64,000 bases of DNA from contig NZ_RBIN01000008.1 in NCBI RefSeq assembly GCF_003633775.1, forward strand, positions 119,188-183,187, given 5' to 3'. Positions 20,152 to 24,634 of this stretch are shown piece after piece. The notes beneath the pieces were generated by a model. It was given only the letters and a program-made list of their open reading frames with translations. It was not told the DNA's origin and did no database searches. The translations under genes and the position numbers were made by a program. Position 1 is the stretch's first letter, and each line of letters opens with the position of its first letter. The stretch is from Kushneria sinocarnis. GTDB taxonomy: Bacteria > Pseudomonadota > Gammaproteobacteria > Pseudomonadales > Halomonadaceae.

Positions 20152-21798
20152 ATGGCCACAGCAGAAAAACAGCAGTTCGGCAGCGATCCGGTCGCCTGTC
20201 GCGATTCGGAGCACTATCAGCAGGAGTACATCGAGGGATTCGTCGACAAGTGGGATCAGCTCATCGACTGGGAGAGCCGGGCCGAGAGCGAAGGCGATTT
20301 CTTCATCGATGTGCTGCGCCGTCGCGGCGCGCGCAAGGTACTGGATATCGCCACCGGCACGGGTTTTCACTCCACGCGCCTGATCGAGGCCGGCTTCGAG
20401 GTGGTCAGCTGTGACGGCAGCCCCGAGATGCTCTCCAAGGCCTTCGAAAACGGTCGACTGCGGGATCACATCCTGCGCACCGTGCAGGTCGACTGGCGCT
20501 GGCTCAATCGCGACATCCACGAGCACTTCGATGCCATCATCTGTCTGGGCAACTCCTTTACCCACCTGTTCTCGGAAAACGATCGCCGCAAGGCGCTGGC
20601 CGAGTTCTACGCCACCCTCAAGCATGACGGCCTGCTGATCATCGATCAGCGCAACTACGATGCCATGCTCGATCACGGCTACTCCAGCAAGCACACCTAC
20701 TACTACTGCGGCGACAACATCTCGGTCTATCCCGAATACATCGACGAGGGGCTGGCGCGCTTTCGCTACAACTTCCCCGACGAGTCGGTCTACTACCTCA
20801 ACATGTTTCCGCTGCGCAAGGAGTACCTGCGCCGGCTGCTGCGCGAGGTCGGCTTCCAGAAGGTCACCACCTACGGCGATTTCCAGCAAACCTACCGCGA
20901 CACCGAACCCGACTTCTTCATTCACCTGGCCGAAAAGAGCTACGACACCGGCGGCAGCAGCGAAGAGCGTTACACCGCCGCAGGCGAGAAGGCGCGCGAG
21001 TATTACAACAGCCGCGACGCGGACAACTTCTACCACACCTTCTGGGGTGGCGAGGATATCCACATCGGGCTCTACACCACGAAAGACGAATCGGTCTTTG
21101 ACGCCAGCCGACGTACCGTGGACCGCATGGCCGCCTCTATCCCCGGGCTGGGCCGGGAGTCGAAGGTGCTCGACATCGGCTCCGGTTACGGCGGCTCCGC
21201 TCGGCATCTTGCCGGTACCTACGGTTGCCGGGTGACCGGCCTCAACATCAGCGAAACCGAAAACGAACGCGGCCGGGAAGCCAATCGTGCCCAGGGGCTC
21301 GATCAGCTGGTCACGATCATCGACGGCAGCTTCGAGGATCTGCCCTTCGAGAACAACGCCTTCGATGTGGTCTGGTCACAGGATGCCATCCTGCACAGCG
21401 GCAACCGTCGCCGCGTGCTCGAGGAGGTGGTCCGGGTGCTTCGCCCCGGTGGCCACTTCATGTTCAGTGACCCGATGCAGACCGACAACTGCCCTGCTGG
21501 TGTACTGCAGCCGATCCTCGATCGCATTCACCTCGACACCCTCGGCTCCCCCGGTTTCTATCGCGAGACGCTCGGTGAACTGGGGCTCGAGGAAGTCTCC
21601 TTCGAAGAGCACTCCGACATGGTGGCCCGGCACTACGGGCGCATTCATGACGAGCTCACCGCCCGCGAGCAGGAGATGGCCCGCGCCATCAGCCAGGACT
21701 ATACGATCCGCATGAAACAGGGTCTGCAGCACTGGGTGGATGGTGGCAACAACGGCCATCTCGCCTGGGGTTTCTTCCTGTTTCGCAAACCCGCCTGA
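20152..21798 (+). CDS. Fused glycine/sarcosine/dimethylglycine N-methyltransferase
   Basis: A 548-residue protein joining the two enzymes of de novo glycine betaine synthesis. The N-terminal half (about 1-270) is a glycine-sarcosine methyltransferase with SAM motif VLDIATGTGFHSTRLIEAGF near residue 63. The C-terminal half (about 280-548) is a sarcosine-dimethylglycine methyltransferase starting with the characteristic ADNFYHTFWGGEDIHIGLY and carrying SAM motif VLDIGSGYGGSARHLAGTYG near residue 339. Together they convert glycine to sarcosine, dimethylglycine and betaine, using three SAM. Separate proteins are known in Halorhodospira halochloris and a fusion in Actinopolyspora halophila. The ATG follows AAAGGAGACTTCG. 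metK and ahcY follow, forming an operon that makes SAM and removes SAH. Confidence 0.93.
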   Translation: MATAEKQQFGSDPVACRDSEHYQQEYIEGFVDKWDQLIDWESRAESEGDFFIDVLRRRGARKVLDIATGTGFHSTRLIEAGFEVVSCDGSPEMLSKAFENGRLRDHILRTVQVDWRWLNRDIHEHFDAIICLGNSFTHLFSENDRRKALAEFYATLKHDGLLIIDQRNYDAMLDHGYSSKHTYYYCGDNISVYPEYIDEGLARFRYNFPDESVYYLNMFPLRKEYLRRLLREVGFQKVTTYGDFQQTYRDTEPDFFIHLAEKSYDTGGSSEERYTAAGEKAREYYNSRDADNFYHTFWGGEDIHIGLYTTKDESVFDASRRTVDRMAASIPGLGRESKVLDIGSGYGGSARHLAGTYGCRVTGLNISETENERGREANRAQGLDQLVTIIDGSFEDLPFENNAFDVVWSQDAILHSGNRRRVLEEVVRVLRPGGHFMFSDPMQTDNCPAGVLQPILDRIHLDTLGSPGFYRETLGELGLEEVSFEEHSDMVARHYGRIHDELTAREQEMARAISQDYTIRMKQGLQHWVDGGNNGHLAWGFFLFRKPA

Positions 21799-21923
21799 CG
21801 ACACTGCACCAACGCCCCTGCCGGCCGCTGCCGGGAGAGGCCCGGGCGGCCGTGTCCGCGGATCACGTCGTCAGTCATGGGCACGGCCTCATTCGATAAC
21901 GAGACCACAGAGAGTCGAACCAC

Positions 21924-23182: not shown

Positions 23183-23209
23183 CTTTCATTTTCATCAGGG
23201 AGTGAAACC

Positions 23210-24634
23210 ATGAACGCTGTAGCCGAAGCAGTGAAGGAAGATTTCAAGGTCGCCGATCTGTCACTGGCCGACTGGGGCCGCAAGGAAATGAAGATCGCCG
23301 AGACCGAAATGCCGGGGCTGATGGCACTGCGCGACAAGTACGGCACCGACAAGCCGCTCAGGGGCGCGCGCATCGCCGGATCACTGCACATGACTATCCA
23401 GACCGCGGTACTGATCGAGACCCTCAAGGAGCTCGGTGCCGAGGTGCGCTGGGCATCGTGCAACATCTACTCCACTCAGGATCACGCTGCCGCCGAGATC
23501 GCCCGCTCCGGCATCCCGGTCTTCGCCTGGAAGGGTGAGAGCACCGAAGAGTACTGGGAGTATACCCACGCCATCATGGACTGGCATGACGGCGGCACCC
23601 CGAACATGATTCTCGATGATGGCGGTGATGCCACCACGGTCGTTACCCTGGGGGCGAAGGCCGAACAGAACCCCTCGGTGCTCGACAATCCGGGTAGCGA
23701 CGAGGAGAAGGCCCTGTTTGCCGCCATTCGCAAGCGCCTCGAGGAGAAGCCGGCCGGCTACTACCAGAGGCTGCGGGACGCCATCCGGGGCGTTACCGAG
23801 GAGACCACCACCGGGGTCAACGGCCTCTATCGGCTGGCGCGCAACGGTGAACTGCCCTTCCCTGCGATCAACGTCAATGACTCGGTGACCAAGTCCAAGT
23901 TCGACAACCTCTATGGCTGTCGCGAATCGCTGGTCGACGGCATCAAGCGCGCCACCGACGTGATGATCGCCGGCAAGATTGCCGTGGTGGCCGGCTACGG
24001 TGATGTCGGCAAGGGCTCGGCTCAGAGCCTGCGCGGTCTGGGCGCCACCGTCTGGATTACCGAAATCGACCCGATCTGCGCCCTGCAGGCGGCCATGGAG
24101 GGCTTTCGCGTGGTGACCATGGACGAGGCCGCCGACAAGGCGGATATCTTCGTCACCGCCACCGGCAACTTCCGGGTCATCACCCATGAGCACATGAAGG
24201 CCATGAAGGACGAGGCAATCGTCTGCAACATCGGTCACTTCGACAACGAGATCGACGTGGCCAGCCTGCGTCAGTACGAGTGGGACACCATCAAGCCGCA
24301 GGTGGATCACATCACTTTCCCCGACGGCAGGAAGATCATCCTGCTGGCCGAGGGTCGGCTGGTAAACCTGGGCTGCGCCACCGGCCATCCCAGCTTCGTG
24401 ATGTCCAACAGCTTCACCAACCAGGTGCTGGCGCAGATCGAGCTGTTCCAGCACAACCGCGACGGCCGCTATCAGCAGGAGGTCTACGTGCTGCCGAAGA
24501 AGCTCGACGAGGAAGTCGCCGCGCTTCATCTGGAGAAGATCGGCGCCTCGCTCACCGAGCTCTCGGCCTGGCAGGCGGAGTACATCGGGGTGGCCACCGA
24601 AGGCCCCTACAAGCCGGAACACTACCGCTACTGA
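23210..24634 (+). CDS. ahcY: Adenosylhomocysteinase
   Basis: AhcY reversibly splits SAH, the inhibitory by-product of methyl transfer, to adenosine and homocysteine using bound NAD. The 474-residue protein has ARIAGSLHMTIQTAVLIETL near the start, the bacterial insert after about residue 150, the NAD loop GYGDVGKGSAQSLRGLGA at about 263, and the C-terminal GHPSFVMSNSFTNQVLAQIE and KPEHYRY signatures. The start follows AGGGAGTGAAACC. With the betaine methyltransferase producing three SAH per betaine, this gene is needed to keep the pathway running; the SAH riboswitch in front ties its level to that load. Confidence 0.97.
   Translation: MNAVAEAVKEDFKVADLSLADWGRKEMKIAETEMPGLMALRDKYGTDKPLRGARIAGSLHMTIQTAVLIETLKELGAEVRWASCNIYSTQDHAAAEIARSGIPVFAWKGESTEEYWEYTHAIMDWHDGGTPNMILDDGGDATTVVTLGAKAEQNPSVLDNPGSDEEKALFAAIRKRLEEKPAGYYQRLRDAIRGVTEETTTGVNGLYRLARNGELPFPAINVNDSVTKSKFDNLYGCRESLVDGIKRATDVMIAGKIAVVAGYGDVGKGSAQSLRGLGATVWITEIDPICALQAAMEGFRVVTMDEAADKADIFVTATGNFRVITHEHMKAMKDEAIVCNIGHFDNEIDVASLRQYEWDTIKPQVDHITFPDGRKIILLAEGRLVNLGCATGHPSFVMSNSFTNQVLAQIELFQHNRDGRYQQEVYVLPKKLDEEVAALHLEKIGASLTELSAWQAEYIGVATEGPYKPEHYRY

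Follow-up and report, generated by a model that had tools for sequence, protein, structure and literature searches.

A putative betaine-from-glycine cassette with a fused methyltransferase and an S-adenosylhomocysteine riboswitch aptamer in Kushneria sinocarnis

The locus described here raises the question of whether a short run of genes in Kushneria sinocarnis amounts to a complete route from glycine to betaine and, if so, how its fused methyltransferase and the run as a whole came to be there. It lies in a stretch of 64,000 nucleotides (the window; contig NZ_RBIN01000008.1, positions 119,188 to 183,187) of a genome of 3.51 Mb in 18 contigs, and comprises a fused gene for a predicted glycine/sarcosine N-methyltransferase (GSMT) and sarcosine/dimethylglycine N-methyltransferase (SDMT), metK, an aptamer for S-adenosylhomocysteine (SAH) and ahcY. 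Judged from sequence, it is probable, with a chance of about four in five, that these elements form a choline-independent betaine cassette with its own supply of S-adenosylmethionine (SAM) and its own means of SAH removal, that this cassette was gained as a block and that its fusion is an independent one. Cassettes of this kind are known; the new traits would be the fusion, most likely of independent origin, an SAH sensor predicted to act on ahcY alone, and a pair of genomes within one genus of which one has the cassette and the other lacks it.

A fused methyltransferase and its cofactor genes

The original prediction, made from the letters of the window, described a 548-residue protein of two halves followed on the same strand by metK and ahcY as a self-contained operon for betaine synthesis from glycine. 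The three genes are indeed present on the plus strand (fused gene, 20152..21798; metK, 21924..23084; ahcY, 23210..24634, 474 aa), with all reading frames intact, and they score above the cut-offs of their family profiles with the exception of the SDMT half. The fused gene is taken to start at ATG 20152 and not at GTG 20014, as a mechanical list of open reading frames has it (20014-21798, 594 aa), because the former is preceded by an AAGGAG ribosome-binding site, recognised by eye, and agrees with the starts of relatives.

The GSMT half (residues 1-264, 20152..20943) scored 500.7 bits over residues 7-264 against the model NF051855, for which the cut-off is 350, and its closest solved structure is the GSMT of PDB entry 5gwx (residues 5-262), which we take to be from Methanohalophilus. 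The SDMT half (residues 274-548, 20971..21795) is closest in structure to a putative SDMT, PDB 2o57 (residues 277-546), presumably from Galdieria, and scored 434.4 bits over residues 277-546 against NF041675, with profile positions 8-277 of 278 matched. This lies below the cut-off of 550 bits, a point that counts against a betaine-forming enzyme and for which reason the half is called SDMT-like by homology and not by curated rule. The same cut-off was missed by seven of eight control SDMTs picked by the analyst: that of Halorhodospira neutriphila alone passed (592.8 bits), a second Halorhodospira sequence fell short by 4 bits (546.1), and the SDMTs of Ectothiorhodospira, Aidingimonas and Thioalkalivibrio, together with three fusions, scored 397-450. 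In view of these control scores the shortfall was set aside as evidence against SDMT identity. An AlphaFold model of the fusion consists of two high-confidence domains (mean pLDDT 86.1, pTM 0.56) joined by a loose linker at residues 265-271, where pLDDT is below 50; the fusion linker as delimited by sequence (residues 265-273, 20944..20970) comprises the 27 nt from codon Y264 to codon Y274.

Residues Y26, R43, N134, H138, R167, Y185, Y206 and M218 of the GSMT of Methanohalophilus portucalensis (MpGSMT) have been assigned to sarcosine binding, the cofactor or catalysis (PMC5146677; this paper and the others cited below are represented by parts of their text). All are kept in the fusion and are invariant in alignments of 6 and of 27 rows. 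As a separate observation, the betaine feedback pocket has Arg104 in the fusion (20461-20463) where MpGSMT has His104; the H104K variant of MpGSMT was reported as more betaine-sensitive (PMC5146677). The metK product scored 623.7 bits against TIGR01034 (cut-off 309.4) and carries the domains PF00438, PF02772 and PF02773, while that of ahcY scored 619.3 bits against TIGR00936 (cut-off 497.6).

These family matches make a self-contained betaine-from-glycine cassette, with SAM supply and SAH removal, the best reading of the locus. The N-terminal half would methylate glycine and sarcosine and the C-terminal half sarcosine and dimethylglycine, with three SAM used and three SAH released per betaine; SAM would come from the cassette MetK in addition to the housekeeping enzyme, and SAH, an inhibitor of enzymes of the GSMT/SDMT kind, would be cleared by the cassette AhcY. 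In M. portucalensis, where sams, sahh, gsmt and sdmt are neighbours in this order, SAH inhibits both GSMT and SDMT; the archaeal cluster resembles that of the window in having SAM supply and SAH removal beside gsmt-sdmt, and differs from it in that its genes are separate and those for SAM lie upstream (PMC3176816). It is quite unlikely, in our estimation, that the cassette yields an N-methylated product other than betaine, or that it is silent or mainly a booster of the SAM cycle. The shortfall of the SDMT half would allow for this, as would the matches above cut-off to betA (choline dehydrogenase) and ectC (ectoine synthase) elsewhere in the genome, given which the route may not be needed; against it stand the conserved active-site residues, the three intact reading frames and the existence of homologues with tested function, namely the GSMT and SDMT of Thioalkalivibrio versutus (PMC9062515). 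Since betA and ectC are present, the host, which probably already oxidises choline and makes ectoine, would gain from the betaine cassette a predicted choline-free route. A paper on Kushneria konosiri names genes for choline-based betaine synthesis and for ectoine, and the word 'methyltransferase' is absent from the portion of its text available.

Expression of the cassette from one transcript is an assumption, as the gaps between the fused gene and metK and between metK and ahcY are 125 bp each. These gaps speak against a single transcript, and a scan of the plus strand of the leader for sigma-70-like promoters, which returned no match, likewise weighs against the proposed operon. The leader (19165..20151, plus strand) extends over 987 bp from glxK to the fused gene, is AT-rich (56.9% GC) and is presumed to be the promoter region. 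It contains no RNA at the Rfam gathering score and bears no similarity to the leaders of eight related cassettes, and the two longest frames overlapping it, to which that scan was confined, matched no Pfam family.

Origin of the fusion

GSMT and SDMT were originally thought to be limited to a few extreme halophiles, a view which does not hold, as 119 other full-length fusions were listed and there are at least 80 GSMT loci in public genomes. The loci used here are the best 80 of 466 confirmed, many of them on short contigs; sdmt adjoins gsmt in 78, metK lies downstream on the same strand in 35, and ahcY follows metK within 300 bp in 16. Loci of Spirochaetes (L053, L054, L058, L067, L071 and L089) show a reversed order, with metK and ahcY upstream of gsmt-sdmt.

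Clusters of this kind have been surveyed in work which we take to be that of Imhoff and colleagues. The survey describes clusters of GMT, DMT, MAT and SAHase, with GMT and DMT fused into one in Rhodospirillaceae, Rhodobacteraceae and Actinopolyspora; in the text available, Halomonas elongata and two species of Chromohalobacter are listed as lacking the route from glycine (PMC7824335). The clusters of Actinopolyspora halophila, Roseivivax roseus and Roseovarius nitratireducens resemble that of the window in combining a fused methyltransferase with SAM synthetase and SAH hydrolase, but they contain MTHFR as well, and those of the two Rhodobacteraceae methionine synthase; the window's cassette has neither (PMC7824335). 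The fusion of the window differs further from the clusters of that survey in grouping with separate gammaproteobacterial pairs, and its cassette has an SAH aptamer whereas the word 'riboswitch' does not occur in the available part of the paper (PMC7824335). Among the papers listed by searches of the open literature of PubMed Central we noticed no report of a fused GSMT-SDMT in Halomonadaceae.

Was the fusion then inherited horizontally from a fused lineage, whether actinobacterial (Actinopolyspora-type) or other, the separate-gene relatives being unrelated to its origin? Fusions are abundant in Actinobacteria, and metK follows those at loci L037, L069, L075 and L091, in three of which ahcY is found further off. 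Trees of 99 rows were built for each half from the window, 78 of the 80 public loci and 20 of the 119 listed fusions, the latter hand-picked for spread; two loci without an SDMT match on the contig and 11 pairs from class genomes were left out. Both halves fall in the same 12-row clade together with 11 separate pairs (support 99/83 for GSMT and 99/97 for SDMT), the SDMT half thus clustering with SDMTs of gsmt-sdmt pairs; the other members come from Arhodomonas, Nitrococcus, Aidingimonas, Litchfieldella, Halomonas and uncultured organisms. In a tree of the joined halves, for which the 99 rows were thinned by hand to 49 at the cost of two Nitrococcus-type pairs from the clade and of numerous long or remote sequences, the window lies in an 8-row set (98/80) inside a 10-row set (100/97), where it is the only fusion.

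Approximately unbiased (AU) tests on the joined halves rejected a clade of the window with eight actinobacterial fusions (p 1.45e-4) as well as a single clade of all 27 fusions (p 8.9e-5); Actinopolyspora is not knowingly among the rows tested, and the eight other actinobacterial-type fusions serve as its stand-in. With single halves the actinobacterial clade gave p 0.03 (GSMT) and 0.063 (SDMT), the latter value not rejecting it, which detracts from the case for an independent fusion. Sequence identity points the same way as the joined test, in that the five Halomonadaceae pairs of the clade are 77-81% (GSMT) and 68-70% (SDMT) identical to the window, as against at most 74.7% and 64.3% for the listed fusions. 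Descent from an actinobacterial fusion, which trees of both halves had been proposed to examine, is therefore disfavoured by the trees and the joined AU test and appears very unlikely. Because the window nests among separate pairs and the actinobacterial clade is rejected, we conclude that the fusion most likely arose independently of the known ones. Other fusions in or near the Gammaproteobacteria, one in a metagenome-assembled genome of Beggiatoa (L074 677-2323) and one of 554 aa placed among Ectothiorhodospiraceae pairs (P0011), stand apart from that of the window in the trees.

The junction itself suggests how the fusion may have come about. In all 11 separate pairs sdmt has a possible start from which it runs out of frame with gsmt and overlaps the gsmt stop by 1-8 nt. 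The conserved tyrosine codons are separated by 27 nt in the window and by 37 in both Aidingimonas and in Litchfieldella, and this net loss of 10 nt brings gsmt and sdmt into one frame; the junction of an overlapping pair would thus have lost a net 10 nt to yield the fusion. The reverse course, in which the clade descends from a fused gene that was later divided in the 11 relatives, might be entertained since fusions occur in many lineages of the tree. It would require at least two splits as opposed to one fusion, because the window lies inside the clade and separate Nitrococcus-type pairs lie outside it in the joined tree, and the out-of-frame overlap possible in all 11 relatives looks ancestral; we regard such fission as rather improbable and an independent fusion as the better account.

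The SAH aptamer ahead of ahcY

The 'RNA sensor' mentioned in the original prediction proved to be an SAH riboswitch aptamer (RF01057; 23098..23187, plus strand) in the gap between metK and ahcY. It scored 58.8 bits against a gathering score of 37, is complete (covariance-model positions 1-78 of 78) and is the sole Rfam match at gathering score within the window. A search in which 150 candidates were scored per genome returned two copies in the source genome and one in each of nine genus-mates. The other copy of the source genome precedes a second ahcY on contig 5, with metK close by and a 415-codon frame in between; the cassette aptamer is 62.7% identical to it, compared with 79.5 and 85.7% to the aptamers of two Aidingimonas cassettes.

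Among 19 distinct related loci, out of the 80 public ones, that were scanned with Rfam, eight contain the aptamer, always between metK and ahcY; in L086 the aptamer-bearing metK-ahcY pair is divergent from gsmt. The 11 loci lacking it include two with metK and no nearby ahcY, three in which the metK-ahcY gap of 24-54 bp is too short, and three with gaps of 131-151 bp in which no aptamer match was obtained.

SAH riboswitches were found upstream of ahcY in all genomes surveyed, metK not being under their control (PMC4239095), and the cassette aptamer agrees with this rule, having ahcY and not metK downstream. It shares with the proteobacterial regulons of RF01057 a position directly upstream of ahcY; in most lineages of these, metF belongs to the ahcY operon, whereas the aptamer of the window lies inside a betaine cassette, behind metK (PMC4239095). 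Among the papers listed by searches of the open literature in PubMed Central we noticed no report of an SAH riboswitch in a betaine-from-glycine operon.

The riboswitch raises ahcY expression, binding SAH at 32 nM and SAM about 1,000-fold more weakly (PMC7057144), and it is likely that the copy in the cassette raises AhcY output as SAH accumulates. Because the aptamer is downstream of metK, the predicted effect of SAH would be confined to ahcY, leaving metK untouched. As to the mechanism, folding predicts a hairpin (23184..23207, plus strand; UUUCAUUUUC / GGGAGUGAAA) that covers the ahcY Shine-Dalgarno sequence (23198-23204), and the SAH-bound fold may open this hairpin and so turn ahcY on. 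The same hairpin is predicted in both Aidingimonas cassettes, that is, in three close cassettes in all. Several points weigh against this mechanism: the ensemble pairing probability in the window is weak, at about 0.39; the hairpin was not predicted in six other cassette sequences or in the housekeeping copy that were folded; and the folding was of plain secondary structure, the pseudoknot being outside the model.

Arrival of the cassette and its significance

The cassette is sparsely distributed around the window. The fused gene or its halves were detected in one of 10 genomes of the genus (E<=1e-30) and in four of 151 sampled genomes of the family (E<=1e-40), the other three of the family being judged to be Aidingimonas lacisalsi, A. 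halophila and Litchfieldella qijiaojingensis; at these thresholds no match came from any of the nine genus-mates or from the remaining 147 family genomes. At least 30 of 369 genomes sampled from the class match at 1e-60, possibly an undercount as three candidates were scored per genome, and among the class matches listed that of the window alone spans both halves without a stop. The original prediction requires a correction here, in that the cassette is shared with other Halomonadaceae, where the methyltransferases are two separate genes. In Aidingimonas, Halomonas ramblicola and Arhodomonas aquaeolei, GSMT-SDMT-metK-ahcY cassettes have the gene order of the window and an SAH riboswitch before ahcY, and they share its GSMT, SDMT and AhcY clades, Aidingimonas alone sharing its MetK clade; they differ in having gsmt and sdmt as two genes that overlap in different frames, and the genes next to the cassette in the window were not found beside them.

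In the window the cassette follows, on the plus strand, betT (15873-17885, above the cut-off of the BetT model), the glycerate kinase gene glxK (18028-19164) and the leader. The nearest genus-mate (G090; glycerate kinase 86% identical) has betT, glxK, the gene at 24731-25696 and the molybdenum enzyme genes in the same order, and its matches to glxK and to the next gene are 176 bp apart, without the cassette. No cassette remnant was present in this 176-bp gap, which resembles the cassette edges in 10-bp matches only; in the other eight genus-mates, the stretch inspected was 1.5 kb to each side of glxK. The cassette borders showed no conspicuous terminal repeats, no gene other than the fused gene, metK and ahcY was identified in the insert, and a plasmid search returned a single match at E<=1e-60 among 72,556 records (a Roseinatronobacter protein, 53% identical).

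A second metK, which the original prediction had suggested looking for, was found on contig 5 (76% identity over 374 residues), as was a second ahcY, which aligned in two pieces (59 and 64%); among 31 family genomes metK was detected in 31 and ahcY in 19. Cassette and housekeeping copies separate with a support of 100 (SH-aLRT) in a quick MetK tree of 42 cassette-side and 28 housekeeping rows (matches of about 330 residues or fewer dropped; the cassette rows include six upstream of gsmt, from Spirochaetes, and the divergent L086) and of 100/100 in an AhcY tree of 26 and 19 rows, respectively (matches below 300 bits dropped). Aidingimonas has the closest relatives of both cassette enzymes, at 90% identity for MetK and 89% for AhcY; the joint branch of the AhcY proteins is weak (87/56). 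The alignment between the cassette AhcY and a family housekeeping AhcY (L010 6782-8278) is likewise in two segments, interrupted around residues 145-187, and this points to distinct subtypes of AhcY.

We read the pattern of presence and absence as the gain of a block, loss in the sister lineage being the formal alternative. An ancestral cassette lost from the other species of the genus we consider unlikely: its occurrence in other genera of Halomonadaceae would fit such a history, while the lack of matches in all nine genus-mates and in 147 family genomes tells against it, as does the identity of 90/89% of MetK and AhcY to another genus when the housekeeping copies of the same genome are far off. 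Gain as one block from related halophiles, with relatives in Aidingimonas, Halomonas and Arhodomonas, is thus likely, its direction and single event being what we infer. The suggestion that the cassette could be transferred as a unit is supported by the empty site and by the grouping of MetK and AhcY with other cassettes, and it is qualified by the greater closeness to Aidingimonas of metK-ahcY as compared with the fused gene. Two findings are difficult to reconcile with transfer from a single source: GSMT (79%) and SDMT (68-69%) show no special closeness to Aidingimonas in comparison with Arhodomonas (81% and 68%), and the cassettes of Halomonadaceae lie closer to the Halomonadaceae housekeeping group (91) in the quick MetK tree than does the cassette of Arhodomonas, whose MetK, 70% identical to that of the window, is placed elsewhere. 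As the four genes lack one common exact nearest relative, the unit may be a mosaic, its parts possibly brought together before the block arrived. The placement of MetK in cassettes, unlike that of GSMT, SDMT and AhcY, also hints at possible metK replacement within them.

Other features of the window include a terminator-like hairpin 3' of ahcY (24693..24719, plus strand), followed by TTTC, which was read by eye and is absent from the output of a terminator scan whose rule demands more T. A siderophore-like locus at 5155-13817 encodes a FhuF-type reductase, a flavin monooxygenase near histamine N-monooxygenase, an IucA/IucC-type synthetase (weakly SbnF/SbnC-like) and an MFS exporter, and at 25753-33834 there is a tandem pair of PaoABC-like molybdenum oxidoreductase gene sets, largely kept in the sister genome G090. 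For the gene at 25753-27969 the closest proteins with a species name come from Kushneria avicenniae, K. aurantia and K. marisflavi (77-79% identity), in keeping with the genus Kushneria.

A more far-reaching view, to which we would give somewhat less than an even chance, is that the cassette is a portable, self-balancing osmolyte module: a single insertion would confer choline-free betaine synthesis, SAH released by the fusion would act on an RNA in the middle of the operon to turn on translation of the cassette AhcY, with MetK exempt from this control, and the gsmt-sdmt overlap would be a stepping stone from which fusion has occurred repeatedly and independently. The finding is of importance in that a complete module, which combines the methyltransferases with the supply of their cofactor, the clearance of the by-product and a likely sensor for it, is found in one strain and is absent from the matching site of its sister, and because that site is empty the gain of choline-free betaine synthesis is open to study against a natural empty-site control. 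The locus also represents a direct test case for the idea that overlapping genes lead to enzyme fusion, and its compact cassette may be of use for betaine production.

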